A DNA stretch of 21,685 nt. It comes from a bacterium (GTDB lineage Bacteria > JALSQH01). Of this stretch, positions 6,001 to 21,006 are shown in pieces. The position numbers and the translations under genes were made by a program. Under the pieces are notes generated by a model. It was not told where the DNA came from. It worked only from the letters and a program-made list of their open reading frames with translations, and did not search any database. Where the stretch lies: positions 1 through 21,685 of the forward strand of contig JALSQH010000001.1 of NCBI GenBank assembly GCA_026985515.1. The letters run 5' to 3'. Numbering within the stretch: the first letter of the stretch is position 1; every line of letters starts with the position of its first letter.

Positions 6001-6003
6001 TAA
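1..6003 (+). CDS. Giant thrombospondin type 3-like calcium-binding repeat surface protein (5' partial)
   Basis: The frame is open from base 1 and the first codons already encode repeat sequence, so the true start and any signal peptide lie upstream. About 2000 residues are visible. Nearly all are short acidic units of the form D-x-D-x-D-G-x-x-D-x-x-(D/E), such as [12 protein letters not shown], which are typical of thrombospondin type 3 and related bacterial calcium-binding loops. In that family the Asp side chains bind many Ca2+ ions and stiffen a long rod; here this is inferred. Only about 13 cysteines occur, mostly in the less regular inserts. The last ~110 bp encode a Gly-rich stretch, one Cys, a hydrophobic segment and a short basic tail, which suggests attachment to the cell surface. 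Likely role: stalk, adhesin or surface-layer component; the ligand is unknown. No enzymatic domain is seen in the visible part. Confidence 0.9.
154..1563 (+). repeat. Long-period repeat inside the giant gene, copy 1 (470 codons)
   Basis: This is a higher-order repeat above the short Asp-rich units. It runs from an EAGD...TPPVD segment through EGTGD, a [11 protein letters not shown] segment, a GICDYVEAR segment, an NGTNWRDP segment and a VTVTNATS segment, then to the next EAGD...TPPVD. The same landmarks recur in the same order from 1564. This indicates duplication of a multi-repeat block followed by divergence. The boundaries are my choice of a recognisable landmark. Confidence 0.65.
1564..3336 (+). 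repeat. Long-period repeat inside the giant gene, copy 2 (591 codons)
   Basis: The landmarks of copy 1 recur in order: EAGD...[36 protein letters not shown] and VTVTNATS. The block is longer than copy 1 because an extra EGTGD-containing segment is inserted towards its end (around 2870-3150). A third, partly reshuffled and shorter version starts at 3337. WRDP or WRNP segments recur again near 4205 and 4810. Confidence 0.6.
5881..6000 (+). other. C-terminal Gly-Cys plus transmembrane sorting signal of the giant protein
   Basis: The last 40 residues contain four glycines, Ala, then a single Cys (codon 5902-5904). A GFDPVL segment follows, then about 15 hydrophobic residues and a short basic end (KRLN). 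This tripartite layout is that of bacterial C-terminal protein-sorting signals. From memory, GGGG-C plus FDP-x-L resembles the JDVT-CTERM class, which is processed by a dedicated membrane protease. The layout is seen; the class and processing are inference. No candidate protease gene is in the window. Confidence 0.6.
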
Positions 6004-6025: not shown

Positions 6026-6727
6026 ATGAACAAGAGGGTTTTTCACAAGGTCAGTTATGGGATGTACATAGTGAGTTCTGTTAAGGATGGGAAGTTCAAT
6101 GGGCAGGTGGCAAACACCGTTTTTCAGATAACCTCAGATCCACCCCGAATAGCAATAAGTATAAACAAAGAAAATCTGACACATGAGTTTATTGAGAGCA
6201 GTAAAAGGTTTTCAGTCTCCATTCTTTCAAAGGAAGCTCCGCTCAAACTCATCGGAAAGTTTGGATTCAAGTCTGGCAGAGATATTGATAAATTTAAAGA
6301 TACGAAGTATGAGGTGGTTGATGGTCTCCCTGTTATAACTGAAGGTGTAATTGGTTATCTAATTGCTGAGGTTGAAGAAAAGATGGATGCGGGCACCCAT
6401 ACCGTCTTCCTTGGGAGGGTAATTGATGCTGATATTACCGGTGATGGTGAACCGATGACATACTCCTACTACCATGAAATTAAGGGAGGAAAATCTCCTG
6501 CCAGGGCTCCAACATATGTTGACGAGAAGGAATTGAAAGCCGCGGAGGAGAAAAAGAAACCTGCTATAAAATATGTATGTACGATTTGTGGTTATGTGTA
6601 CGATCCTGAAAAGGGTGACCCTGATGGTGGAATTCCTCCTGGAACTCCCTTTGAAGAGATCCCGGATGACTGGACCTGTCCAGTCTGTGGGGCCAGTAAG
6701 GAGGATTTTGAAGTAGTGGAAGAGTAG
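6026..6727 (+). CDS. hrb: Flavin reductase-rubredoxin fusion (high-molecular-weight rubredoxin, Hrb type)
   Basis: A 233-residue two-domain redox protein. Residues 1 to about 150 resemble the FMN-binding flavin reductase-like fold, beginning with the [18 protein letters not shown] type of start. A charged Lys/Glu linker follows, then a complete C-terminal rubredoxin with iron ligands Cys185, Cys188, Cys218 and Cys221 and the usual [15 protein letters not shown] and DDW-CPVCG signatures. In Moorella, Hrb passes electrons from NAD(P)H to the flavodiiron protein FprA, which reduces O2 or NO; the same role is inferred here. The ATG at 6026 has a strong GGAGG (6013-6017) 8 nt upstream. It lies 22 bp after the giant gene with no terminator between, so co-transcription is possible although a functional link is not obvious. 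A hairpin terminator follows. Confidence 0.9.
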
Positions 6728-7790: not shown

Positions 7791-8378
7791 ATGGATAAGA
7801 GAGAACTTATTGCAGAGGCGGTAAGGGAATTGATAATTGAGAAAAAGAATTCAGCATTCTCTGTTGAGGAGATTGCAAAAAAGGCAGGTATAGGGAAAGG
7901 AACGGTTTATCTATACTTTGAGAACAAGCAGCAGATCATAACATTTACAATTTTCTACTATCTTGAGAAATTTGTTGACTCTATTGAAGAGAGTGTTAAA
8001 AGGGGAGAAAACCCGGTTGAAAAGCTTGAGCTTCTCATAAGGTCCTACATGGAGAATGTAAGGGGTGTATCCACTTTCTGGGAGATCCTTTTTGAGTCCG
8101 TTTCAACGAGGGATCTGAAGGAGGAAAAGGATAGATTTCAAAAGATCAGAAAGAGAATTCTTGGAATAATACATTCAATTATCCAGGAAGGAGTGGATAC
8201 GGGGTTTTTCAGAAAGTTTACAGATATGGAAAAAATCTCATGGATCATCTTTATGCTGCTCAGGGGAATGGGATTTTATGTTTCTCTTACAAAATCGGAT
8301 GAAGAAGAGATTGAGGAAATGTTAAGAGAGGTTAAGGAGGTGCTCCTTTATGGAATATATAATGACTCTGTTGCTTAA
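7791..8378 (+). CDS. TetR/AcrR-family repressor of the efflux operon
   Basis: 195 residues. The N-terminal helix-turn-helix is plain at residues 23-46 (FSVEEIAKKAGIGKGTVYLYF then EN-K), matching the TetR signature. The rest is a helical ligand-binding and dimerisation domain whose ligand cannot be predicted. The gene heads an operon with the three parts of an RND efflux pump and has its own operator over the promoter. It therefore most likely represses itself and the pump until an effector binds. The ATG at 7791 has AGGAG 5 nt upstream. Its 3' end overlaps the TolC-like gene by 29 bp, and its last codons carry that gene's Shine-Dalgarno sequence. Confidence 0.9.
   Translation: MDKRELIAEAVRELIIEKKNSAFSVEEIAKKAGIGKGTVYLYFENKQQIITFTIFYYLEKFVDSIEESVKRGENPVEKLELLIRSYMENVRGVSTFWEILFESVSTRDLKEEKDRFQKIRKRILGIIHSIIQEGVDTGFFRKFTDMEKISWIIFMLLRGMGFYVSLTKSDEEEIEEMLREVKEVLLYGIYNDSVA
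8334..8350 (+). promoter_or_regulatory. Shine-Dalgarno sequence of the TolC-like gene held in a hairpin
   Basis: AAGGAG (8334-8339) and CTCCTT (8343-8348) form a perfect 6-bp stem with loop GTG just before the ATG at 8350. The stem covers the ribosome-binding site, and it lies inside the end of the tetR reading frame. Ribosomes finishing tetR would open it, giving translational coupling (inference). Confidence 0.5.
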
Positions 8379-9666
8379 CTTTATGATTGCAGTAACATCA
8401 ACGGTAAATTCATCTTCTACATTGTGGCAAACCATAAATCTTGCATGGGAACACAGTGAAGAGGTGAAAAGTGCGGTTCTGAACTATGAAAAGAGTAAAC
8501 TGGAGGTAGATGAGTACTGGGGTACATTTGCGCCCAAAATAACAGGGTACTGGAATTACCAGAGGAATCCCGAAGTTAAAGTAACATTTTCTCCCCACAT
8601 ACCTCAAGAACTGCAGGCATTGCTTGGGAATTCTTACAAACCTGAATCAGTTGTGGTGCGTCCTTCAGAAAATTATGAAATGGGTTTGAAATTGATGCAG
8701 AAGATCTTTGATCCATCAATGATTCCTGGATTGAAAATAACAAACCTTTACAGGGAAATGGCTGAACTGGGGCTTCAAAAGACAAAGGAAATGGTTGCAT
8801 ACCTGACGACAAACCTCTATTTGCAGCTTCTCTTTCTCACGAAGCAAAAGGATGTTCTATTAAAGGAAGACAGTGAACTGGAAATTGAGAAGAAAAAGAC
8901 TGAGGATGAAATTTCCCTTGGTCTGCAACCTGAATGGAGCAAGCTGAGAATAGATATCGAGATTCAGCGTCACAAAAAGTCTCTCATGGAAGTTGAAACC
9001 ATGATCAGGTATGTATCATCCGAACTGGAAAGATTAACTGGAAGGAAAATTTTTCCTGCTGAACCTCCTGTACCTTCTTCCCTCAATAAAAGTGCTTTTT
9101 CTACCGATGAATCTGTGGATCTGAAAATCACATCTCTTCAGAAAGAGTTATCTCATCAGATGTGGAAGGTTCAGGTGGGTAGATTGTTTCCTAGGATAAA
9201 TTTTATGTGGAATTATTCCTATCAGAAGAACCCGGGAAATTTTGGAAAAAAGGAGAACTGGATGGTTATGCTTCAGCTGACATGGACCATCTTCAGCGGC
9301 TTATCTCGATACTACGAAATAAGGGAAAGTTCAATTGATGAAGAAATTGCCGGTCTTGATCTGACGAAGAGAAAAAAAGAGGCAGAGATTAAGCTAAAGA
9401 GGGCAATTGATGAATTTTTTCAGCAGAAGAAACTCCTTGAGGTTTCCCGGAGGACTTTTGATCTTGCCAGAAAGAACTTCTCCCTTGTAGAGGAAAATTA
9501 CAAAAATGGAAAGGCAGATGTAATCACATATATTGATGCAAGAAATAATCTGCTGAAAGCAAAACTCTCTCTTATCTGGAACAGGTATCAGCTTTTATTA
9601 AAACGAATGAATGTTTACATACTTTCAGGAAAACTTGAACAATTCATGGAGGAAATAAGGCAATGA
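8350..9666 (+). CDS. TolC-like outer-membrane efflux channel
   Basis: 438 residues with an N-terminal signal-like hydrophobic stretch (residues 5-18). Two halves follow, each rich in amphipathic coiled-coil helices and alternating strands, as in the outer membrane efflux protein family. Examples are WQTINLAWEHSEEVKSA near residue 26 and the coiled coil around residues 165-230, with a second one around 320-420 (KNFSLVEENYKNGKADVITY then IDAR). The NG-x-x-x-x-x-x-Y-I-D-A-R pattern is typical of the second half. There is no lipobox, so it differs from OprM lipoproteins. The product should form the trimeric exit duct for the RND pump. The start at 8350 is preferred over the ATG at 8362 because AAGGAGG stands about 9 nt upstream. 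It overlaps tetR by 29 bp and hlyD by 4 bp. Confidence 0.85.
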   Translation: MEYIMTLLLNFMIAVTSTVNSSSTLWQTINLAWEHSEEVKSAVLNYEKSKLEVDEYWGTFAPKITGYWNYQRNPEVKVTFSPHIPQELQALLGNSYKPESVVVRPSENYEMGLKLMQKIFDPSMIPGLKITNLYREMAELGLQKTKEMVAYLTTNLYLQLLFLTKQKDVLLKEDSELEIEKKKTEDEISLGLQPEWSKLRIDIEIQRHKKSLMEVETMIRYVSSELERLTGRKIFPAEPPVPSSLNKSAFSTDESVDLKITSLQKELSHQMWKVQVGRLFPRINFMWNYSYQKNPGNFGKKENWMVMLQLTWTIFSGLSRYYEIRESSIDEEIAGLDLTKRKKEAEIKLKRAIDEFFQQKKLLEVSRRTFDLARKNFSLVEENYKNGKADVITYIDARNNLLKAKLSLIWNRYQLLLKRMNVYILSGKLEQFMEEIRQ

Positions 9667-10658
9667 AGAGAACAGGAATCCTTTTGTTAGTGTTTACAAT
9701 AGCATTTGCAGGGTGCGGGAAGAGGGAGTTCAGAACTGCTGTAAAACCTGTTCCCGTAGAGGTTGAAAGGGTAAGAGTTGAGGGGTACACCATTACAAGG
9801 CCTGTTCCCGGATATGCAAAGGCTAAAGAGATCATTTTAAAATCCAGAGGTGGGGGAAAGGTTGAAAAGATTTTCAGGAAGGAAGGTGATTTTGTAAAGA
9901 AGGGAGATAAAATTGCAGAAATTGGTACTTCTATTTTTGCGTCTCAGCTAAAAATAGCAGAAGTTCAGTTAAAGAATGCAAGGGATGAGTTTGAGAGAGC
10001 GGACAGGCTTTACAAAAAGTCTCTTATTTCAAAGAGTCAGTGGGAAAAGGTGCAGGCTGCATTCATCTCGGCACAGGAGAGGTACTCTATCGCAAAGGTC
10101 AATTACCAGCTCTCCATTCTCACGGCACCTTTGGATGGATATCTGGAGGATTTTGAACTTAAAACTGGTGATATTGTAACTCCCGGTTATCCACTGGGGA
10201 AAGTTGTTGGCAGGTATGTAACTGAGGTGGATGCATTCCTTCCGGGAGAAAAATTTGAAGTGTCAGAGGGAGATGAGCTTGAGTTTACCGATGGGAAAGG
10301 AAAGTATATGGGAAAAGTAGCCTATATTTCAAGGGGTTATGTGGTAAGCGGTAATTTCAGAAAACTGATTCTCAGAACACCCCCACTTGATATTGTTGAT
10401 GGTTCACCTGTTACGGTGATGGTTCCAATAGTTAAGAACAAAAGAGGAATTCTTGTCCCCCTTGATGCTGTTAAATTTACCAGAGAGGGGAAATCCGTGT
10501 TCGTTGTTAAAGATGGAAAGGCTTATGAAGTACCGGTAAAAACTGGATCCATAGTTGATGAAAAAATAGAAATTCTTTCAGGTTTGAGAGAGGGGGATAA
10601 TCTTGTTGTTTCAGGTCAGCAGTATCTTAAAACAGGTATGAGGGTGGTTGTGAAATGA
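9663..10658 (+). CDS. HlyD/AcrA-type periplasmic adaptor lipoprotein
   Basis: 331 residues. The signal peptide ends in a lipobox (AFAGC, Cys18), so the protein is lipid-anchored in the periplasm like AcrA. Downstream are a lipoyl/barrel-sandwich half (VEKIFRKEGDFVKKGDKIAEI), an alpha hairpin (about residues 95-150) and the second lipoyl half (LTAPLDGYLEDFELKTGDIV). A beta-barrel and a membrane-proximal domain follow, containing GILVPLDAV and SGLREGDNLVVSG. It bridges the RND pump and the TolC-like channel. It overlaps the channel gene by ATGA and has GGAGG at 9648-9652. Confidence 0.93.
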   Translation: MKRTGILLLVFTIAFAGCGKREFRTAVKPVPVEVERVRVEGYTITRPVPGYAKAKEIILKSRGGGKVEKIFRKEGDFVKKGDKIAEIGTSIFASQLKIAEVQLKNARDEFERADRLYKKSLISKSQWEKVQAAFISAQERYSIAKVNYQLSILTAPLDGYLEDFELKTGDIVTPGYPLGKVVGRYVTEVDAFLPGEKFEVSEGDELEFTDGKGKYMGKVAYISRGYVVSGNFRKLILRTPPLDIVDGSPVTVMVPIVKNKRGILVPLDAVKFTREGKSVFVVKDGKAYEVPVKTGSIVDEKIEILSGLREGDNLVVSGQQYLKTGMRVVVK

Positions 10659-13600
10659 ACAGGAAAAGCGTGCTGACATATCTGTCGTTGAAATATTCCA
10701 CCACAACATGGGTGACTCTCATTTTTGTGGCAATTTTTGGTTATATTGCCTATGTGACAATCCCCAGAGAGCTTGCACCAGACATGACAATACCGTATAT
10801 AATTGTCACTGTCCCGTACATGGGTGCTCCCCCTGAAGATATTGAAAATTTGATTACGCGGCCACTTGAGAGAAAGCTATCAGAAATAAAGGAAATTGAC
10901 GAGATGAAATCCACTTCCGCTGAAGGTGCATCAATGATAATGTTAAAGTTCAAGGCGGGAATAAATATTGACGATGCACTCCGTAAGGTAAAGGAAAAGG
11001 TGGATCTGGCGAGAGGAGATCTTCCGGAGGGAATTGAAGAGCCTTCAATAAGTGAGATAAGTTTTTCAGAGTTTCCGGTTCTCTATATAAACCTGGTGGG
11101 GAATTACAGTGAGACCATATTGAGGGGATTTGGTGAGGATCTGAAGGAGGAGATTGAGGATATACCGGGGGTTCTGAATGTGGATATCTCCGGCGGAAGG
11201 GAGAGAGAGATCCAGATTTTTCCACGGGTGGAGGATCTTATCAGGTATAGAGTTGCTCTCACAGATATAATAAGGGCGATTAAGGCTAACAACATAAATA
11301 TTCCAGGCGGAAGAACAAAGGGCAGGAAGATAAGATTTCTTGTCAGATTGAATTCTCAATACAGATCAATAGATGAGATAAAGAATACCCCGGTTAAGGT
11401 GACCCGAAGGGGAATGGTGTATCTCAGAGATGTTGCAGATGTGGTGGATGCCCCTGCCGAGAGGACAAGTATTGCGAGAATTGATGGAAAACCCGCAGTG
11501 ACCCTTACAGTTCAGAAAAAGGCAGGAGCAAACATACTTGAAGTTGTTGCCAGAATAAAAGAAAAAGTCAGAGAATTCTCAAAGACACTCCCTCCCGATG
11601 TTAAGATCATTTACTCTTCAGATGCTTCAAAGCATATAAAAAGAATGCTCTCCACACTTCAGAATAATCTGCTTACAGGTCTTCTTCTTGTACTTATTGT
11701 TCTTTTCCTCTTCATGGGATGGAGGAGTGCAGTTCTTGTTGCCCTTGCAATCCCTCTCTCCCTTCTCTTCACCTTTCTGGTTATAGATCTGATGGGAATA
11801 ACCCTCAATATGGTGGTTCTCTTTTCTCTTATTATTGCCCTTGGTATGCTTGTTGATAATGCCATCGTTGTAATAGAGAACATATACAGGCACTATCACA
11901 CCAGGAATATTACTCTTTTGAAAGCAGCATATGATGGTGCATCTGAGGTGGCAATGCCTGTTCTTTCCTCCACTCTCACAACCATTTCCGCATTTTTCCC
12001 CCTTCTTTTCTGGCCCGGTGTTACGGGTAATTTCATGAGCTTCCTGCCAAAAACGGTTATAGTTGCCCTCACTGCCTCATATCTTGTGGCAATGCTTTTT
12101 GATCCTCTTCTTGCAGCCACATTTTTAAGAAAGGAGGAAAAAGAAGAGAAAATTCTCAGAGAGGGTTCAAAGCTATATAACAACTTTGAAAAACTTGTGA
12201 GATGGGCGTTGAATCACAGGTGGCTAACTATTTCCATTGCTGTGGCATTTGTTCTCGTAAACTTAATTCTCTTTCCCATTCTGGGGAAAGGGGTAAATTT
12301 TTTCCCTGAAACTGATCCTGACAGAGCATTTATTTCAATAGAGGCACCCGATGGAACCACTCTTGAAGAGACAGATAAAATCGCAAGGGAAGTTGAGAAT
12401 AGACTTAAGAATATCCCGGATATTAAGCATATTGCAACGAGAGTGGGAGTAAGTCAGGGTGCCGTTAAATGGCAGTCAAAAGCATCTGCTGCCAATTCGA
12501 ATAAGGCGAGAATATCCATTGAATTTGTGGACAGGCACGAGAGGCATCAGCATACCTTGAAAACCATTCTTGATATAAGAAAAGCTATTGCTGGAATTCC
12601 CTGTGCAGAGTTTCTGGTCCAGAGAGAGAAGATGGGACCTCCGAGGAAGATGCCCATTCAGGTGAGGGTAACAGGTGATGATATAAACAGGTTGCTGGCA
12701 ATAGGCGAGGAAATAAAGGAGAAGATAAGGGATATTCCCGGTCTGTATGATTTGAAAATAGATCTGAAGAAGGCCAAGCCAGAGATCAACTTCAGAATAG
12801 ACAGGACGAAGCTTTCACAGATGGGTTTTAATCCCATGATGGTTGCATCAACCCTCAGAACCATCTACAGTGGGACAAAGGTTGCGAAGTACTATGAAGG
12901 AGAGAATGAGTTTGACATTACACTGAAATTTCCAGAAAAGTACAGGACTCTTTCCTATCTGGATTCACTCATTATACCCGATATGAGGGGTGTCTATCAT
13001 CCAGTAACAGAAATTGGAACATGGAAAATAGAGAATGGTTTTGGAACAATCAGAAGGATTAACAGAAAAAGAGAAGTTACCGTTATGGGAAACAATGAGG
13101 GAAGGCTTGCTTCAGAGATTCTGAAGGATATAAAGAAGCGGTTGAAGAATATATCTCTTCCGCCCGGGTACACAATTTCCTTTCAGGGTGAGCGAAAAAA
13201 GGAGGCTGAAGCGAAGAGATTTCTGGGAAAGGCTTTCCTCTACGCACTTGCCCTCATATTTCTCATCCTGATAACTCAGTTTAACTCCATTGTACTGCCC
13301 TTCATCATAATGGTTTCAGTGGTCCTCTCTCTTGGTGGTGTTTTCTTTGGTTTGATTGTTTCCCTGACTCCCTTCAGTGTCATTATGACCGGTCTGGGTA
13401 TCATCAGTCTGGCAGGAGTTGTTGTTAACAATGCCATTGTGCTTATTGACTTCATTCAGGAATTGAGGGAACAGGGTTACGACAAATTTACAGCTGCCAT
13501 TGAAGCTTCCAAGATAAGATTGAGACCGGTTCTTTTAACTGCTCTGACCACCGTGATCGCTCTTCTCCCAACGGTCTTCAGGGTGAATGTTGACTTTATA

Positions 13601-13768
13601 CATCTGAGGCTTGATGTTGGTGACCCGGGAGCACAGTGGTGGGGACCTATGGCAACTGCCATTGTGTTTGGTCTCACCTTTGCGACCCTTTTAACACTTG
13701 TGGTGGTACCAGTCCTCTACACTTTACTGACCCGTGATGAGTACAGAAAGAGGGAGGAAATCGGTTAA
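10655..13768 (+). CDS. RND-family multidrug efflux permease (AcrB/MdtB superfamily)
   Basis: 1037 residues, full length for hydrophobe/amphiphile RND pumps. It has TM1 near residues 17-37, a large periplasmic porter loop, TM2-6 (about 333-490), a second porter loop, and TM8-12 (about 860-1020). The TM4 motif is GMLVDNAIVVIEN with Asp401 and Asn402, where AcrB has Asp407 and Asp408. The TM10 motif is VVVNNAIVLIDF with Asn925 and Asn926, where AcrB has Lys940 and Asn941. This D-N/N-N set is, from memory, common in RND pumps outside the AcrB group and does not imply loss of function. The likely role is proton-driven export with the adaptor and channel encoded just upstream; the substrate is unknown. 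The start overlaps the adaptor gene by ATGA. Its stop codon overlaps the stop of the convergent receptor gene. Confidence 0.95.
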   Translation: MNRKSVLTYLSLKYSTTTWVTLIFVAIFGYIAYVTIPRELAPDMTIPYIIVTVPYMGAPPEDIENLITRPLERKLSEIKEIDEMKSTSAEGASMIMLKFKAGINIDDALRKVKEKVDLARGDLPEGIEEPSISEISFSEFPVLYINLVGNYSETILRGFGEDLKEEIEDIPGVLNVDISGGREREIQIFPRVEDLIRYRVALTDIIRAIKANNINIPGGRTKGRKIRFLVRLNSQYRSIDEIKNTPVKVTRRGMVYLRDVADVVDAPAERTSIARIDGKPAVTLTVQKKAGANILEVVARIKEKVREFSKTLPPDVKIIYSSDASKHIKRMLSTLQNNLLTGLLLVLIVLFLFMGWRSAVLVALAIPLSLLFTFLVIDLMGITLNMVVLFSLIIALGMLVDNAIVVIENIYRHYHTRNITLLKAAYDGASEVAMPVLSSTLTTISAFFPLLFWPGVTGNFMSFLPKTVIVALTASYLVAMLFDPLLAATFLRKEEKEEKILREGSKLYNNFEKLVRWALNHRWLTISIAVAFVLVNLILFPILGKGVNFFPETDPDRAFISIEAPDGTTLEETDKIAREVENRLKNIPDIKHIATRVGVSQGAVKWQSKASAANSNKARISIEFVDRHERHQHTLKTILDIRKAIAGIPCAEFLVQREKMGPPRKMPIQVRVTGDDINRLLAIGEEIKEKIRDIPGLYDLKIDLKKAKPEINFRIDRTKLSQMGFNPMMVASTLRTIYSGTKVAKYYEGENEFDITLKFPEKYRTLSYLDSLIIPDMRGVYHPVTEIGTWKIENGFGTIRRINRKREVTVMGNNEGRLASEILKDIKKRLKNISLPPGYTISFQGERKKEAEAKRFLGKAFLYALALIFLILITQFNSIVLPFIIMVSVVLSLGGVFFGLIVSLTPFSVIMTGLGIISLAGVVVNNAIVLIDFIQELREQGYDKFTAAIEASKIRLRPVLLTALTTVIALLPTVFRVNVDFIHLRLDVGDPGAQWWGPMATAIVFGLTFATLLTLVVVPVLYTLLTRDEYRKREEIG

Positions 13769-15579
13769 AAACGGCAGTAGAGGTCAATTTCCCATTCCTT
13801 CAGCGGGGTTGGAAAACCCCTTATTGACCAGAAGGATGTTGAAAAGAGATTGTAACGGTAAAATCTGATGGAGAAGTTTGTGAAAAATCTGTAATAGATT
13901 TCTCCATCCATCCTCCACTGGTGATCGATATATTTTGTGTTGGAGAGATTAAGGAAAACCATCTTTTGAAAAAATAGTGAAAGTTTAAAGTATGGGTTTG
14001 TTCCCACTCTCACGGAACCGGTACTGTTAATCTCAGGTATGTAAGGTATATCGCCGCTCAGGTTACCCCTGTGGTACTCTGTTTTGTTTAGTGTGGCTGA
14101 AAGATCGAAAGCAAGAAAATCAATTTTCTTATTGATCATAATGGTCAGACCCTGCTGGGATGAGCTGGAGAGGGAAAGTGGTTTATATCTGAAGCCTGAA
14201 ATTAGAAAGTAATCAATCAGATTCTCATCCTGCCTCCGAAAGGTCATAAGGGTTGCATTGAGAAACCCACTGTATTTGAGAATAAAATCTGCATACCATC
14301 CTCTCCCCTCCTCAAGGTGCGGGTTGTTCTGTATCAGACCGTGTGAAAAATAGAGTTCATACATTGTGGGATAATTTGTATGGGTTGAGAAGTTGCCGGA
14401 AAAGTCAAAACTTCCTTCTTTTAGGCTGAAACCTGCAGAGGGATCAAATGTAAAGGAGTGTCCAACAGAGTTGAGTGCCGTCATGAAAAAGAGGGTGAGT
14501 TTATCACTGCTGAAAATGATTGCAGGATATTGAAAAAACTCTCCCCTTCGGTGCCCACCAGTGTACCTGTTTTTCAGGGTAACTTCCCTTGCCTTCATTC
14601 TGTATCTCCAGAAAATACCTCTGGTAATTTGTCCCGAATCTTTTAAACCTGCCTCTCTCTGATTGAAAAATGTTTCAATGTGTTCGGGGAATCCGCTGAA
14701 TTCACCAGAAGGATCAGAGTATTTTTCCCTGATTCTCCCTTCAGATGCGTAGAGGAGAAGGTTACCATTTTTCATACTCAGAGTAAAGATTTCTGAAAGA
14801 GAGTATGAATGAGTGTACTTTCCGGGAAAGGTTATCAATCCAGGTTCCCCCCTCAGGAGAGATGTGGTTCCGTAACGAAAGCTCAGGTTGCTGAAAGCAA
14901 GAAAAATATCGAAAAATTTTCTATTGAACTGATTGTTTTTTCTTCTGTCGGGGAAGTCGTCACGAGTATACAGAAATGTCCCCCTGTTGTTTATGAATGG
15001 GAAGTCGCCATCGCTGCTAAGTGCCCCGGTGGATAGATTTAGTTTTGCCTTTCCAGTTTTAAGGCAGAGATTTGCCTCTCCACCTGCAAGATTTTCACTT
15101 CCATAGGTGAGAAGGAACTTTTTCCTGCAACTCTTTTCCGTTTCCACTCTTATGAGAGCTCCCCCTTCCCCCATTCCCTGTGGGATCAGAGAGAGATGCG
15201 AAATTTTACCTGGAAGAGCGAATAGATCAATACTTCCGTCAGGAGTTTCCCAGCTCATGTCGTCAACTTCAATCTCCATATTTTTTCCCCGTACTCCCTC
15301 TATTGAGATTTCTGTCTGATCAGTTCGGCCTCCCATTCTTTTCACGGAAACAAAGGTTGAACTTTCTATTTTTTCTGTGAGTTCAGTTTCACTCTCTACG
15401 CTTTTTCTGATTGTGAATGATGTGGGTAATTCTGGCGGAACAGGTGCAGTAACTTCAATGGCAAGAATGGGTATTTCCTCACTCTGGAGGCACTTCATGC
15501 CCGGAGTGGATAATTGAAACAGCATCAAGATCAAAACCACACTTATCAGGTCCACATGGAAAGTGATTTCCCGCATCAT
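13765..15579 (-). CDS. TonB-dependent outer-membrane receptor, probable B12/corrinoid transporter (BtuB-like)
   Basis: 604 residues, close to the size of the E. coli BtuB precursor. A signal peptide covers about residues 1-28. Next comes a TonB-box-like IEVTAPV segment and a plug domain to about residue 165, with a TEISIEGVRG strand and IPQGMGEGGALIRVET where receptors usually have a YG..A.GG.INI motif. The rest is amphipathic beta-strands ending in aromatic Phe (LYCRF), the usual outer-membrane barrel end. The plug is divergent from BtuB, so the B12 role rests mainly on position as the last gene of a cobalamin-riboswitch operon. The start at 15579 gives a full signal peptide and has GGAG about 9 nt upstream, at the price of a 101-bp overlap with the preceding gene. 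Other Met codons at 15525 and 15498 would cut into the hydrophobic core. Confidence 0.8.
   Translation of the reverse strand: MMREITFHVDLISVVLILMLFQLSTPGMKCLQSEEIPILAIEVTAPVPPELPTSFTIRKSVESETELTEKIESSTFVSVKRMGGRTDQTEISIEGVRGKNMEIEVDDMSWETPDGSIDLFALPGKISHLSLIPQGMGEGGALIRVETEKSCRKKFLLTYGSENLAGGEANLCLKTGKAKLNLSTGALSSDGDFPFINNRGTFLYTRDDFPDRRKNNQFNRKFFDIFLAFSNLSFRYGTTSLLRGEPGLITFPGKYTHSYSLSEIFTLSMKNGNLLLYASEGRIREKYSDPSGEFSGFPEHIETFFNQREAGLKDSGQITRGIFWRYRMKAREVTLKNRYTGGHRRGEFFQYPAIIFSSDKLTLFFMTALNSVGHSFTFDPSAGFSLKEGSFDFSGNFSTHTNYPTMYELYFSHGLIQNNPHLEEGRGWYADFILKYSGFLNATLMTFRRQDENLIDYFLISGFRYKPLSLSSSSQQGLTIMINKKIDFLAFDLSATLNKTEYHRGNLSGDIPYIPEINSTGSVRVGTNPYFKLSLFFQKMVFLNLSNTKYIDHQWRMDGEIYYRFFTNFSIRFYRYNLFSTSFWSIRGFPTPLKEWEIDLYCRF
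13805..13825 (+). terminator. Possible terminator of the efflux operon, antisense within the receptor gene
   Basis: GGGGTT (13805-13810) and AACCCC (13815-13820) pair perfectly around a GGAA tetraloop, and TTATT follows. It sits 37 bp beyond the RND stop codon. The T tract is short, and the hairpin lies in the coding end of the convergent receptor gene, so it may be partly coincidental. Confidence 0.4.
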
Positions 15580-16699
15580 CTATCACATCTCCATTGATAT
15601 CCTTTGATCCGTAACCAGTGTCAATAATTTTAACATATCTTATCCATTTTAAACCTGTTTCTTTAAGGTCAAACTGGTCTCCACCGGCATAACGCGGATC
15701 AGTTGCTGGGACGGTGGGAGGATTTGCATAAACGGGGTGAACTCCCGCAAGATTTGTGTAGTTTGCGGGATTTCCAACTCCTCCCTTTCCATCAGGATTG
15801 TAATCGGGGGGGAACCTGATAAATTTCTTCCCATCCTGACTCACTTCCACAAAGGCTGTTTCTGTAAAAACTGAATCTCCATACTCCATCGGATTTTCAA
15901 ATACAATAAAATCTGCTCCCGGTCCATCAGTGACGAAATTTGCAAATTCAATAGTGATCTCACCGCCATTTCCGAGAGAAAGCAGCTCTTCAGGGGAGGA
16001 TTGCGCAGGATCTCCACCCCTTGGTGGTCCAAGAACATTTCCCGGGAAATAATCCAGGCCGAAACCTCCGGAGACGCCAAGACTGTAGTCAATTACCTTA
16101 AAGCCATAGGGTTCCTTAGACGGCAGGTCCACCTTTATAATGCTATTTGCCAGATTGCCACAACAGTAGAATCTGAGAAGTGTTGTTCCATTTTCCGCAC
16201 CGATTTCCACTTCCCCTGAAGGTTTTGCAGTTGCAACCGCCGGGTTTTCGGAAGAGAAAGTTCCCACAAGCCCGTAGAAGATGTTTCCCTCATCATCAAT
16301 TCCTGATACAGAGATGGAATAATTCTTCCACTCAGTTATTTCCAGCTTCTCCGGCACAAGGAAGATTTTATCCAGTTTCAGATTCCTTTTAACCACAGCG
16401 TGAATAAATCCTGTGAATGAATCATGGGTAAGCTGAACAGTGGTGGTCCCCTCATTCACTGCAATCAGGAAATGTCCATCCACGCTTACAATATTGGGAT
16501 CACGGGATTTGAGTGTGAAGTCTCTTACCTGCTTTTCATCATGGAAAAGTTCCACTTTTACTCTGCTGCCGGGAGAAGGAAAGGTTACTCTGGAGGGAAT
16601 AATTTTATAGTTTTCCACTTTTGATCTTCTGGGTGTACAGGATAAAAGTAAAAGGAGAGTGAGTATAGAACTCACTCTCCGTAGTCGGCTTTCTTTCAT
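15479..16699 (-). CDS. Cell-surface lipoprotein with Big_2-like domains, B12-regulated
   Basis: 406 residues. The lipobox is LLLSC (Cys21). Two bacterial Ig-like (Big_2 type) domains lie near residues 31-104 and 110-191, each with the usual (R/E)(D/N)P-x-(I/V)(V/A) and GTT pattern. The C-terminal half (about 200-400) has VLGPPRG, LGNGGEITIEF, GPGADFIVFENP, FVEVSQDGKKF, AGGDQFDL and a late CGPDKC-GFDLDAV. I know these as marks of a 'cell surface protein' family often found beside TonB-dependent receptors. A DINGDVIDD loop near the end could bind calcium. Position between two other lipoproteins and a receptor, all after a cobalamin riboswitch, suggests a surface subunit for B12 capture; direct binding is not shown. 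It starts by ATGA overlap with the preceding gene, and its 3' end overlaps the receptor gene by 101 bp. A strong hairpin lies in its signal-peptide codons. Confidence 0.75.
   Translation of the reverse strand: MKESRLRRVSSILTLLLLLSCTPRRSKVENYKIIPSRVTFPSPGSRVKVELFHDEKQVRDFTLKSRDPNIVSVDGHFLIAVNEGTTTVQLTHDSFTGFIHAVVKRNLKLDKIFLVPEKLEITEWKNYSISVSGIDDEGNIFYGLVGTFSSENPAVATAKPSGEVEIGAENGTTLLRFYCCGNLANSIIKVDLPSKEPYGFKVIDYSLGVSGGFGLDYFPGNVLGPPRGGDPAQSSPEELLSLGNGGEITIEFANFVTDGPGADFIVFENPMEYGDSVFTETAFVEVSQDGKKFIRFPPDYNPDGKGGVGNPANYTNLAGVHPVYANPPTVPATDPRYAGGDQFDLKETGLKWIRYVKIIDTGYGSKDINGDVIDDAGNHFPCGPDKCGFDLDAVSIIHSGHEVPPE
16644..16680 (-). terminator. Terminator-like hairpin inside the start of the third B12-operon gene
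   Basis: On the coding strand GGAGAGTGAG and CTCACTCTCC form a perfect 10-bp stem with a 7-nt loop (16680-16654). TTTTACTTTT follows (16653-16644). The stem begins about 20 nt after the start codon. The T-rich side is only on the minus strand, which is the direction of transcription. It could be an intra-operon attenuator relieved by translation, or a stabilising or translation-slowing hairpin; the structure is seen, the role is inferred. Confidence 0.5.
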
Positions 16700-18765
16700 C
16701 TTCCTAAATCCAATGTTGTTATCCAGCTTGATGCGCCTGCATTTCCTAAATCAAAAAGATGCTCCCATGGAGTATCAGGATTCTCGATGTCAGATTTCAG
16801 GAAAAGAGTTGAATTCATTCCCCATGAGGAAACGACTGCCCCTGCTTCACCTACCTTGTAATCTCCAATTACGGGTGTCACCATTGCCCATCCACCATAT
16901 CCGTAATCTGAGAATGAATACACCGCAACTGAATTCAACTGTTCATTATCAGCCCTTACAACGAAGAGTTTACCTGAGGAACTCCCTACAAGCAAAAATA
17001 TTCCCTCTTCTGTTTCAACTACTTCAATTCCACCGGGATGTGAACCCGTACCAAGAGAAATGCGAGTAACTTCCTGAGGATAACCATTATCAATGGAGAA
17101 AAGAATCAGATAACCTGTGTCAGTCGTGGGGGTTGAACTGTAATCACCCGTACATACCCCTGCAAGATAATGTCCATAATCATCTTCAAAAGCTTTAACA
17201 TCCTGCAGGTTGACACATCCTGTAACATGGAAGTTGTAGGTGGTGTAGAGCGTGTTTGTTGGATCAAGGGATGAAATGGTGACCATTGTAAGGTATGAGT
17301 CACCGAAAATTGACCTGTAATTCTGGTAGTCAAATCCCTGAAATCCACTTGCAGCAAGGAATAGAGTTAGACCGGAACTGGTCCATGCCTCAGTGATTCC
17401 TTCGTATGACATATCCTGATCGATTCCTGTTGTGTAAATCGGGTAGGAGTGGCATGTATCCTCCAGTGGGTAGTAAATGGAGAATCTCTCACCTGTCACT
17501 GGTTGATGAAATTTTTCGAAGTTTGTGAAAACTATGGCATCTTCTGAATTGTAATAGATCTCTTCTGACTCGTAGGGAGAGGATGCACAGAAGGAAATAT
17601 CTTCTTCATCAACTAACTGCAGGGAGAGGGGATTATACTTCAGAAGGTGGTAGGCACCCCATGTTGTGAAACCATAAATGTATGTGGTTTTCTCTCCATT
17701 CTGAAGAATTGAATCACCGGGGGCTATTGTTGAAATAACATATGGAGATTGTGAGCCTGGCACCGGTGAGAGTACATAGAATTGATTGTAACCCACGAGG
17801 GAAAGGGAGTACTGATATTCATTTTTGAAAATAAGATAGGAATCGTAAATTAGATAAAGGGTAGCGGAATTTTCCTTTTCACCATCTGAAACCTTAATCC
17901 TGATGCTTTCTGTGGGGTAGTGTACCCAGTTGATTCTCAGTGCCATGTATTTCCCATTCTGATAGGCTACAATTCCACTGTCTGATGTTTCAAAGGTAAT
18001 TTGAAGTGAGTAAAAATCGTTATCCTTATCCACAATGTATCTGGAAAGGTCTATAACTTCAGGAAAACTTTTTTTGAAAAACCTGAGGGATAGAATTAAT
18101 TTGTTGAAGGGAATGTTTATTTCTGGTGGAAAATCATAGTGTTCAACATTAATATGCCAGGTTACCGAAGCAGATTTGTTGCCACCAGAGACAGTCCCGG
18201 TGATTGTTATGGTTTGACCTTCCATTTCCCCCGTTGCCGTAAATGTAAGGGTGTTTGAGTATCCCGCCTCATTTCCATTTACATACCAGATGTATTTTAT
18301 TTCAGAGTCTGGATCCTTACCAGAAATGTAAAACTGAATGGTTTCCCCCTTTTTCAGGGTAATGGTGGTTGATTCTGGAGAGTACTGTGTTATTTCTGGG
18401 GGATCGTCCACCTCTTTTATTACCACCTGATAAGTGATTTCCTGTGTTTCGTATCCCTTCCCGGTGGCCACAAAAGTGAGGGGTATTGTTTTGCCTCCGT
18501 CTTCCTCATCAGGGGTTATTGTTACTGATGTACCATATCCAGCTATTTCATTCTTCCATATCCAGTAAGATTCAAGAGATGGAGAGGGATTCAGGATCTT
18601 TACCTTTACTGTAAAAGGCTTGTGTTCCTCTGCCTGAATTGTTCCTCCTTCAGGTGAAATTTTCTGAACCACAACAGCTGGAGCTTTAAAAACCACTTCC
18701 TTTTTACCCTGCTGACAACTTGCAACAATAAGCAATAGTGGGAGAAGAAGTAGCATCTTTTTCAT
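16696..18765 (-). CDS. Large Ig/PKD-domain lipoprotein with C-terminal propeller-like region, B12-regulated
   Basis: 689 residues. The lipobox is VASC (Cys17). Three Ig/PKD-like beta domains follow at about residues 34-114, 118-208 and 213-310. Evidence includes the 'DPDSEIKYIWYVNG' style segment and paired DPPEIT and FPPEIN linkers. From about residue 315 to the end, aromatic-rich strands alternate with turns. Segments such as GGIEVVETEEGIFLLVGSS then SGKLFVVRADNEQL look like propeller blades. I do not recognise the family as a whole. The plausible role is a long stalk that presents a binding head at the cell surface. A strong AGGAGG sits in the last codons of the preceding gene, and the start overlaps it by ATGA. 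The end overlaps the next gene by ATGA, so translation is tightly coupled. Confidence 0.65.
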   Translation of the reverse strand: MKKMLLLLPLLLIVASCQQGKKEVVFKAPAVVVQKISPEGGTIQAEEHKPFTVKVKILNPSPSLESYWIWKNEIAGYGTSVTITPDEEDGGKTIPLTFVATGKGYETQEITYQVVIKEVDDPPEITQYSPESTTITLKKGETIQFYISGKDPDSEIKYIWYVNGNEAGYSNTLTFTATGEMEGQTITITGTVSGGNKSASVTWHINVEHYDFPPEINIPFNKLILSLRFFKKSFPEVIDLSRYIVDKDNDFYSLQITFETSDSGIVAYQNGKYMALRINWVHYPTESIRIKVSDGEKENSATLYLIYDSYLIFKNEYQYSLSLVGYNQFYVLSPVPGSQSPYVISTIAPGDSILQNGEKTTYIYGFTTWGAYHLLKYNPLSLQLVDEEDISFCASSPYESEEIYYNSEDAIVFTNFEKFHQPVTGERFSIYYPLEDTCHSYPIYTTGIDQDMSYEGITEAWTSSGLTLFLAASGFQGFDYQNYRSIFGDSYLTMVTISSLDPTNTLYTTYNFHVTGCVNLQDVKAFEDDYGHYLAGVCTGDYSSTPTTDTGYLILFSIDNGYPQEVTRISLGTGSHPGGIEVVETEEGIFLLVGSSSGKLFVVRADNEQLNSVAVYSFSDYGYGGWAMVTPVIGDYKVGEAGAVVSSWGMNSTLFLKSDIENPDTPWEHLFDLGNAGASSWITTLDLGR

Positions 18766-19817
18766 TCTACACCTCCTTTTACTTTTTGAAGATCGACTGG
18801 GCCTTCCCCTGTTTTGTATCTGCCGATTATTTTTAACTTAACTGGATCAATTACGAAAAGCTGAGATGTGTTGAATTCTGCCGCAAAGAGAAGATTTCCA
18901 AAGGATTCAAGATCACTTACCATGCTCAGGGAGTTGTTAGAAAGAATGATTTTATCCACTAATTTCCACTCAGAATCATACACAAGCACCTTACCCATTG
19001 ATGCATCAGAGACGAAGTAGCGAGAATTGATTGGTCCTGTGACGGTGTATGGAGCTCCCGGGACATCCACTTCGGTAATGAAAATTGACTTCTCAGGATG
19101 GTAGATCTCTATTTTTCCATTTCCCGCAAATCCCTCCCCATTCCTGTAATCACCGGCACTTATGACAGCTATTCTTCCACCGATATTCACCACATTTACT
19201 GTATCTCTTCCATTTACCTGTATCAGACTCCATTCATTCTCTTTACCCATGTAAATGCCGCCGGGCCCCCCTGCTGTGGAGCTGGAGTTCAGGTTAGCAA
19301 GAGCAACAAAAACCCTTCCACAGCATCTGCATACACCCATAGGAGAAAATCTCCTTTTCTCACCGGGTGTATCAGCGGGGAGTTCTCCAGTAATTTCCAC
19401 AGAATACTTGAATTTCCACGAATCCCCACTTCTTGAAAAAAGGGCTATCTGATCTTTAAGATAGAGGGAAACATAGAGGATTCCACCAAGTTCAGCTCCG
19501 CTGAAGGGATTTGTCCCTGACCCTGTTGAGGTTTCTGATAGGAGGTGAAGTTGAAAGTCGTATGTTGTCAGGGAGTTGGAGAGAGAGTTTATAACGGTTA
19601 TTCCTTTCTCATCAATTATGATTTTATTTGCACCCTGATCCGCAGGTGAAAGGTGATTTAAAATCCTGCCCCCACGGTAGAGGGATATATCTTCAGACAG
19701 CGTGTTCAAAATGAGGATGGAATTCCCTGCAGTGACAGTGAGATGCTCTGAATTTTCCTTTCCCTTACAGGATACAAGGAGTGTTAGAGCGAAAAGAGAA
19801 AGCAGAAATTTTCTCAC
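18762..19817 (-). CDS. Beta-propeller surface lipoprotein, first gene after the B12 riboswitch (BtuG-like in kind)
   Basis: 351 residues. The lipobox is LVSC (Cys17). The mature part is a series of about six or seven similar strand blocks of the type G-x-(L/I)-(Y/F)-V-(S/A) ... I-x-(V/I)-(Y/F)-(D/H/S), for example GILYVSLYLKDQIALF, NSRYFVSDASMGKVLVYD and GNLLFAAEFNTSQLFVID. It ends in TGEGPVDL, as YncE/YVTN-type propellers do. In Bacteroides, BtuG is a propeller lipoprotein that binds B12 very tightly on top of BtuB. Lipid anchor, fold and riboswitch control make this a candidate analogue; homology is not proven. A CRCC cluster at residues 163-166 is unusual. The start is GTG at 19817 with GGGGTG (19825-19830) 7 nt upstream, close behind the riboswitch. 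Confidence 0.75.
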   Translation of the reverse strand: MRKFLLSLFALTLLVSCKGKENSEHLTVTAGNSILILNTLSEDISLYRGGRILNHLSPADQGANKIIIDEKGITVINSLSNSLTTYDFQLHLLSETSTGSGTNPFSGAELGGILYVSLYLKDQIALFSRSGDSWKFKYSVEITGELPADTPGEKRRFSPMGVCRCCGRVFVALANLNSSSTAGGPGGIYMGKENEWSLIQVNGRDTVNVVNIGGRIAVISAGDYRNGEGFAGNGKIEIYHPEKSIFITEVDVPGAPYTVTGPINSRYFVSDASMGKVLVYDSEWKLVDKIILSNNSLSMVSDLESFGNLLFAAEFNTSQLFVIDPVKLKIIGRYKTGEGPVDLQKVKGGVE

Positions 19818-19840
19818 TTCCCGACACCCCGCGGATTTTT

Positions 19841-20002
19841 CGTTGCAGGCCGGTCTCCTGGCTCCCGGATCATCCTACTCGGGCACCTTCCCGGACAGGC
19901 AACCCCTCCGGATCCACCTGTCCAGTGGCATTGCCCTTTCGTCCCCGGTTACAGTGGCGGGGGCCGCTCCGGATTCTCACCGGATTCCCGTCACCTGCAA
20001 CG
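19841..20002 (-). promoter_or_regulatory. Cobalamin (adenosylcobalamin-type) riboswitch
   Basis: Read on the minus strand, all the hallmark boxes are present in order. These are GGGAA, GGTGAGAATCCGG (19981-19969), CCCCGCCACTGTAA (19962-19949), the B12-box-like GCCACTGG (19929-19922), GGGAAGG, and AGCCAGGAGACCGGCC (19863-19848). A perfect 9-bp closing stem P1 joins CGTTGCAGG (20002-19994) and CCTGCAACG (19849-19841), and GGACAGG/CCTGTCC forms an inner hairpin. The aptamer ends 23 nt before the GTG start of the propeller lipoprotein. No hairpin plus T run follows, so control is probably at translation initiation. High B12 should switch the operon off. Confidence 0.96.
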
Positions 20003-20008
20003 GAAATA

Positions 20009-20036
20009 ATTTTACAGGGATAGGGAGTAATGTCAA
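20009..20036 (-). promoter_or_regulatory. Promoter of the riboswitch operon
   Basis: On the minus strand, TTGACA (20036-20031), a 16-bp spacer, and TAAAAT (20014-20009). The expected start site falls at about 20002, where the riboswitch P1 stem begins. That agreement supports both calls. Confidence 0.75.
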
Positions 20037-20091: not shown

Positions 20092-20931
20092 TTAAAACTT
20101 CCCCTTCAGCTCCTGATTTATGCTTCCGTCAGAGTTGCGGAAGATTATGTGATACTCACCATGCCCCATATTCCACTTCAAATAGCCATCCAGGAGGAGT
20201 GAACCTTCATATATGCTCCTTTGAACACATTCGCCCCACGTCGGGTTGCTCTGGTCGTCTTCAGACAGGGTGACCTCTCCCCCCATCTTTCCATTCTGGT
20301 AAAGTTCGACTTTTCCAGTATCGCTGGTGCTGTCGGATGAATAGGTTAAAATTGCAGCCAGCTCTTCAAAGTAACCACCATATCTCATTACTTCACCTTT
20401 CTCTCCATTATTCTGAAAATTTGCCCTTGCTGTTATGTAGGGAGAGCCATTCTGATATGCCACCACCTCTGCATAGCTTCTGTCATTTTTTATTTTCAGG
20501 AGTGTTCTCTCTGAACCAACTCCGCTGACAATATCGAAGGAAAAATTAAGATAAGTGTAATCGGTAGCTTTTGAAACAACCACACTGAAATCATCACCTC
20601 TCCATGTATTATTTCCTGTGGAGGTCAGATCATCAAAATCCTCATCAGCAACAAATAGTTTTTCAATAAACTCAGATTCATTTTTAACAACACCTATACA
20701 ATCTGCAAGAAAATTTGAAATTGTGTCTGAATCATCTGTGGAACTCAGGTCCAGAACAGGTGCATTAAAATCAACTTCAGGTTTTGGGTATGAGAGGGGA
20801 GTTACGGGATTGTTTTGATGCTGATTGCTGTTACCTGTTCCTCCTCCATTGGTGGAAGTGGATGGGGAACTGCTCCGGCAGGATGCATATAAAAAAATAA
20901 TCATGAAAACAGCAACTAAATATTTCTTCAT
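20092..20931 (-). CDS. Lipoprotein of unknown function
   Basis: 279 residues from the ATG at 20931, which has AGGAGG 6 nt upstream. An in-frame start 24 bp further upstream (20955) would add a non-signal MNSRRRFV extension and is less likely. The signal peptide ends at a lipobox (LYASC, Cys18). A low-complexity Ser/Thr/Gly/Asn/Gln tether follows to about residue 40, then a mostly beta-strand domain with no motif I recognise. Two cysteines further on (ADC and GEC) could pair. It has its own promoter and lies upstream of, not within, the riboswitch transcript. A link to B12 uptake is possible by location only. Confidence 0.75.
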   Translation of the reverse strand: MKKYLVAVFMIIFLYASCRSSSPSTSTNGGGTGNSNQHQNNPVTPLSYPKPEVDFNAPVLDLSSTDDSDTISNFLADCIGVVKNESEFIEKLFVADEDFDDLTSTGNNTWRGDDFSVVVSKATDYTYLNFSFDIVSGVGSERTLLKIKNDRSYAEVVAYQNGSPYITARANFQNNGEKGEVMRYGGYFEELAAILTYSSDSTSDTGKVELYQNGKMGGEVTLSEDDQSNPTWGECVQRSIYEGSLLLDGYLKWNMGHGEYHIIFRNSDGSINQELKGKF

Positions 20932-20945
20932 GACAAACCTCCTCC

Positions 20946-21006
20946 TTGAATTCATGATGCCTTAATTATACATCAGAAGTGCAGCTTATAGCAAATTGAA
21001 TTCATG
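20946..21006. repeat. Pair of 11-bp direct repeats flanking the lipoprotein promoter
   Basis: TTGAATTCATG occurs at 20946-20956 and again at 20996-21006, exactly 50 bp apart start to start. One copy is downstream of the -10 box and the other is upstream of the -35 box of the promoter at 20965-20994. About five helical turns separate them, which would suit a looping or paired regulator site. This may be chance. Confidence 0.35.
20965..20994 (-). promoter_or_regulatory. Promoter of the unknown lipoprotein gene
   Basis: On the minus strand, TTGCTA (20994-20989), an 18-bp spacer, and a perfect TATAAT (20970-20965). The start site would be near 20958, about 27 nt before the ATG at 20931. Confidence 0.6.

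Follow-up and report, generated by a model that had tools for sequence, protein, structure and literature searches.

The window (the whole 21,685-nucleotide stretch that was analysed) contains a cobalamin riboswitch followed by four overlapping open reading frames on the same strand, encoding proteins of 351, 689, 406 and 604 amino acids. All features of the operon lie on the reverse strand. The aptamer (RF00174, 19831-20013) was matched over the full length of the covariance model with a score of 125.6 bits (E = 1.3e-31) against a gathering score of 31.5, and apart from this element, which reads from 20013 to 19831, no cobalamin riboswitch was found in the 2.36 Mb assembly (97.6% complete). 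A near-consensus promoter stands 5' of the riboswitch, the sigma-70-like TTGACA-16-TAAAAT (20009-20036), identified by consensus match only at 11 of 12 positions. Genes 1 and 2 share 4 bp, as do genes 2 and 3, and genes 3 and 4 share about 101 bp; this last overlap is probably real, since the signal peptide of gene 4 begins inside the terminal part of gene 3. Lipoprotein signal peptides were recognised at the starts of genes 1, 2 and 3, with the lipoboxes LVSC, VASC and LLSC respectively. These features substantiate the original prediction of a B12-riboswitch operon encoding three lipoproteins and a TonB-dependent receptor. Since Bacteroidete lipoprotein export signals were not visible in the operon lipoproteins, their surface exposure is assumed.

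No terminator was found between the aptamer and the start codon. The sequence GCGGGG (19827-19832), directly 5' of the GTG start of gene 1, is the exact six-nucleotide complement of the aptamer-core loop CCCCGC (19957-19962), and the pair is a candidate L5-L13 kissing loop masking the ribosome-binding region. Class-I cobalamin riboswitches control translation via a kissing loop; the exact complementarity would thus fit translational control of this operon.

The operon is flanked by genes of other kinds. Positions 1-6003 encode a protein with at least 2000 residues of thrombospondin-type-3-like repeats rich in Asp. Its reading frame runs off the window edge, and its end combines a Gly-rich motif containing Cys with a hydrophobic stretch and basic residues, in the manner of a C-terminal sorting tag. 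A fusion of a flavin reductase domain with a rubredoxin domain occupies 6026-6727. The row of genes at 7791-13768, for a TetR regulator and TolC-like, membrane-fusion and RND efflux proteins, is convergent with gene 4 and overlaps it by 4 bp. Directly upstream of the riboswitch, on the same strand and outside its control, lies a gene for a 287-residue lipoprotein (20092-20955) to which no family was assigned.

Receptor, lipoproteins and H domain

Simple Pfam and NCBIfam scans yielded almost nothing for the four proteins, as did PDB searches with single sequences, and their identities emerged only once family alignments were built. Gene 4 (13765-15579, 604 residues), aligned with relatives from other genomes, showed a BtuB-sized barrel and a plug in which the expected positions are conserved. 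A profile built from the window protein and five relatives gave BtuB1 (8blw_A, 2.4e-55) and E. coli BtuB (1nqf, 1.9e-52) as the best solved structures, with the colicin I receptor a close third (9.6e-52). The window protein alone passed no Pfam or NCBIfam receptor model and matched no NCBIfam family at E up to 1; the cut-off of TIGR01779 (NCBIfam TonB-B12) was not reached, the gene 4 relative in locus L014 attaining 209.7 of 599.7 bits. Because gene 4 alone passes no curated model, it is regarded as BtuB-like and strongly diverged. By alignment and family profile the protein is assigned to the BtuB family of TonB-dependent receptors, with transport of cobalamin as its predicted function.

Gene 1 (18762-19817, 351 residues) encodes the first lipoprotein. 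A ten-member profile (A9) matched BtuG1 (8blw_B) at 5.8e-13, 8p97_B at 1e-7 and 3dsm at 1.2e-6, the BtuG structures ranging from 5.8e-13 to 2.5e-6, while the best match, ahead of BtuG, was the generic surface-layer propeller 1l0q at 1.4e-18. Gene 1 shares the riboswitch operon with the BtuB-family gene 4, two genes standing between them. Since the profile matches YncE-type propellers including BtuG1, with 1l0q the better match, gene 1 is considered BtuG-like by fold family, position and signal peptide. The profile results assign it to the YncE/BtuG propeller superfamily and back the earlier inference of a propeller with BtuG-like architecture, though 1l0q scores better.

Gene 2 (16696-18765, 689 residues) combines two Ig/PKD-like domains with a 480-residue C-terminal region. 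The Ig/PKD-like part, residues 31-207, finds matches in many large surface proteins of other genomes. No full-length relative was found in 386 genomes, the Ig region alone being matched; gene 2 was its own sole match in a phmmer search of all named loci, and simple searches of these loci and the 386 genomes detected no homolog of the C-terminal region. The AlphaFold model of this region, computed without an alignment, had a pLDDT of 34 and was not usable. Profile-profile comparison (hhalign) with diverse BtuG-like propellers from riboswitch loci gave a probability of 83 and a score of 47.7, whereas none of 30 shuffles exceeded 20.4; the part resembling these propellers comprises residues 443-605 (16951-17439) and contains the motif CTGDYSST. 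Another gene-1 profile gave a probability of 50, the seven closest gene-1-type propellers scored 20.2, within the shuffles, and the BtuB and H profiles gave nothing. Since it was matched by the diverse propeller set only and not by the seven closest, the propeller reading is not firm. With moderate confidence, the likeliest reading is that the C-terminal region forms a second, very divergent propeller. Thus the Ig/PKD part of the predicted Ig/PKD-propeller architecture stands on residues 31-207, the propeller part depends on the profile-profile score, and the earlier view that gene 2 is unlike known lipoproteins gives way to a most likely BtuG-like propeller behind two Ig domains. In the related operons L080 and L055 the first gene encodes an Ig-plus-propeller lipoprotein.

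Gene 3 (15479-16699, 406 residues) had been described as a Big_2 protein unlike any known lipoprotein. The Big_2-like match of its N-terminal part is weak and below the Pfam cut-off (E = 0.012), and the informative part proved to be the C-terminal domain (residues 197-400, 15500-16111), a discoidin/CBM32-like jelly roll of BtuH type, here called the H domain. AlphaFold modelled the H domain with pLDDT mostly above 90 and the N-terminal part poorly. The top PDB matches of the H-domain model were BtuH2 (7biz, Z 14.2) and the H domain of BtuG1 (8blw_B, Z 14.1), with the next, unrelated structure at Z 9.5; the superposition on 7biz had an rmsd of 3.3 over 160 residues, spanning 7biz 314-592. A search profile built from two sequences, those of the window and of genome G036, detected the H domain in 31 of 386 genomes, the window's own not counted. 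In G036, which belongs to another family, a riboswitch is followed by homologs of genes 3, 1 and 4 in a row. A 24-member H-domain alignment matched 8blw_B exactly in the H domain (whole-sequence E = 3.3e-4, best segment 0.005) and BtuH2 7biz with E = 0.03 in the PDB profile search.

The VFENxF motif of the H family aligns with GNAF of BtuH2. Numbering GNAF from a construct of 2 + 491 + 8 residues, by our arithmetic, gives Asn399 and Phe401, residues which contact the phosphate and the lower ligand of B12 (PMC8941943). Of 112 relatives bearing the motif, 108 retain the asparagine of VFEN, as does the window, where Asn269 (codon 15893-15895) aligns with BtuH2 Asn399. The phenylalanine two residues further on is kept in 90 of the 112 and is methionine in the window, and the other B12 contacts of BtuH2 are on loops that cannot be aligned with gene 3. 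The profile matches and the two leading fold matches identify the C-terminal domain of gene 3, as modelled, as a BtuH-type B12-binding domain by fold, for which corrinoid binding is predicted.

The H domain of gene 3 also matched NF033170 (LIC_13355 family lipoprotein) with E = 7e-12 and 43.5-45 bits against a curated cut-off of 120, and this model was matched by 23 of the 24 H-family members. None of the 24 had a Pfam match of any kind. Identity of gene 3 with DUF4465/BtuJ was considered and dropped, there being no Pfam DUF4465 match; BtuJ was absent among the fold matches listed for the H domain, which is no evidence by itself.

Recurrence with cobalamin riboswitches and B12 use by the host

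In 27 of the 31 genomes by Rfam, and in 28 with a model built in this analysis, a cobalamin riboswitch is found no more than about 9 kb from the H domain. These genomes contain 45 riboswitches in about 119 Mb, from which about 0.2 such pairings would be expected by chance. A riboswitch was likewise found in 61 of 80 named H-domain loci; in 60 cases it shares the strand of the H-domain gene and precedes it, the median distance being 1.6 kb. The loci derive from Myxococcota, other 'Deltaproteobacteria', KSB1, Caldithrix, BRC1/Sumerlaeota, CSSED10-310, Fermentibacteria, Gemmatimonadota, Omnitrophota, Nitrospirota, Verrucomicrobiales and other groups. Among these loci, many on short contigs, a BtuB-like receptor was recognised in 37 and a propeller in 50; 32 combine riboswitch, receptor and propeller. 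The two surveys are not independent since some loci are common to both. The closest relatives of the whole operon are L014 (G036), L080, L081/L082 and L063; the one same-family genome (G001, 80% complete) had no match to genes 1-4. The results indicate that the gene set recurs behind cobalamin riboswitches elsewhere and, together with the riboswitch in the window, support the predicted link of the operon to B12.

Several loci depart from this arrangement. Propeller and H domain are fused in a protein of ~640 residues in KSB1/Caldithrix loci (L065, L099, L100, L105, L107, L125, L150 and similar). In L095 (7616-7999) and L110 (8392-8741), a pair of cobalamin riboswitches is arranged back to back, one on each strand, apparently for operons that diverge. 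H-domain genes with no riboswitch, receptor or propeller recognised nearby occur in L122, L138 and L143 (Nannocystis) and in L101, L108, L121, L145 and L157; these are possibly functional departures or cases of missed elements.

The host genome encodes cobalamin-dependent methionine synthase MetH, methylmalonyl-CoA mutase and the adenosyltransferase BtuR/CobA, as well as BtuF-, BtuC- and BtuD-like proteins, the FecCD permease being split over two contig ends and adjoining an ATPase and a BtuF-like protein. This BtuF/BtuD/BtuC-like importer lies on contigs C97 and C183 of G000 (L189, L190), and no cobalamin riboswitch was detected at it on these contigs. CobS, which is required to complete a cobamide from cobinamide, was not found in the 97.6% complete genome. 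Its gene content suggests a host that uses B12 and depends on importing complete cobamides. The capture of B12 precursors, which the original prediction had allowed for, is less likely as no CobS was found.

Proposed function of the operon

The four genes very probably constitute a B12-repressed operon for scavenging corrinoids at the outer membrane, working like BtuB-BtuG-BtuH of Bacteroides. When adenosylcobalamin or another cobamide is scarce, the riboswitch would leave the start region free and the operon would be translated. The gene 3 lipoprotein, through its H domain, together with the propellers of gene 1 and probably gene 2, would bind corrinoid at the cell surface and hand it, perhaps within a complex, to the BtuB-like receptor of gene 4. 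The receptor would move the corrinoid to the periplasm on TonB energy, and the separate BtuFCD-like ABC importer would bring it to MetH and methylmalonyl-CoA mutase.

It may instead be that the operon serves corrinoid uptake while gene 3, and perhaps gene 2, encodes a non-binding accessory, an adhesin, scaffold or vesicle factor like BtuL of B. thetaiotaomicron. Such a role is suggested by LIC_13355, the named relative of gene 3, which is studied as a leptospiral adhesin and was reported to bind laminin and plasminogen (PMC11891782), by the finding that BtuK2 and BtuL do not bind cobalamin (PMC12751083), and by the many ligands served by the discoidin/CBM32 fold. However, both standout structures for gene 3 are B12-binding H domains, the phosphate-contacting asparagine is nearly invariant and the H domain tracks cobalamin riboswitches across phyla, results which render an accessory role unlikely. 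The H domain also argues against import of something else, such as cobalt, a sugar or a metal chelate linked to a corrinoid, with B12 as a mere repressor. Although TonB receptors and propeller/Ig lipoproteins serve many ligands and the gene 4 window protein passes no Pfam or NCBIfam receptor model, the receptor family best matches BtuB structures, ahead of siderophore and heme receptors, and the host is apparently dependent on B12; this reading is extremely improbable. Specialisation for incomplete corrinoids (cobinamide and precursors) in place of complete cobamides is judged very unlikely with CobS not found in the genome, even if the genome retains BtuR/CobA and BtuG2 binds cobinamide as well as cobalamin, as is stated with reference to earlier work in PMC11287211.

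In most microbial communities B12 is a shared cofactor in limiting supply. With the H domain occurring next to B12 riboswitches in ten or more bacterial groups, many more bacteria than described so far probably scavenge B12 at their surface. It appears somewhat probable that the H domain, a known B12 binder only in gut Bacteroidetes, represents a pan-bacterial family of surface corrinoid-binding domains, extending over at least ten groups and including leptospiral LIC_13355, and that BtuG/BtuH-like capture is general and no speciality of gut Bacteroidetes. If so, lipoprotein-assisted capture of B12 would be common to many soil and sediment bacteria (Myxococcota, KSB1, Sumerlaeota, CSSED10-310, Fermentibacteria, Gemmatimonadota and others), and a testable function would be offered for the Pfam-less H-domain family and for a leptospiral lipoprotein known only as an adhesin.

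Comparison with known systems

BlastP searches led to the report that BtuG is confined to Bacteroidetes (PMC6143338), and BtuH, described from gut Bacteroidetes, was said to have no known structural homologs (PMC8941943); no relevant paper on BtuH outside gut Bacteroidetes was among the matches listed from the open-access literature, of which coverage was incomplete. The original prediction took the operon for a candidate undescribed system. Since genes 1, 3 and 4 have known relatives, it is a divergent Btu surface-capture operon and not a system without known relatives, and the novelty lies in how widely the H-domain family is spread and in its connection with LIC_13355. The operon is a divergent variant of the BtuB-BtuG-BtuH surface system of Bacteroides (PMC6143338, PMC8941943, PMC10404256, PMC12751083), with which it shares the receptor family and the H-domain fold.

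The BtuB1-BtuG1 (BtuGH) system of B. thetaiotaomicron (8blw, PMC10404256) has in common with the operon a cobalamin riboswitch, a BtuB-family receptor beside a propeller lipoprotein, and an H domain, whereas here the H domain is a separate lipoprotein, sequence identity is very low and the lineage is different. The propeller-H fusions of KSB1/Caldithrix are of the same kind as BtuGH, and BtuH of B. thetaiotaomicron does not associate stably with BtuBG (PMC10404256). Gene 3 resembles BtuH2 (7biz, PMC8941943) in the fold of the C-terminal B12-binding domain and in the equivalent of Asn399, and perhaps in an N-terminal Ig-like part, weakly matched in gene 3. It differs from BtuH2 in having about 16% identity over the fold, methionine in place of Phe401 and contact loops that cannot be aligned. 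Its H domain matches NF033170 well below the cut-off, and the namesake LIC_13355 is described only as a leptospiral surface adhesin. BtuJ/DUF4465 proteins, which have been extended to eight clades (PMC13398666), are likewise jelly-roll B12-binding lipoproteins of riboswitch loci in several phyla (PMC13398666, PMC12751083), but they constitute a different family from the 24 Pfam-less H-domain members.
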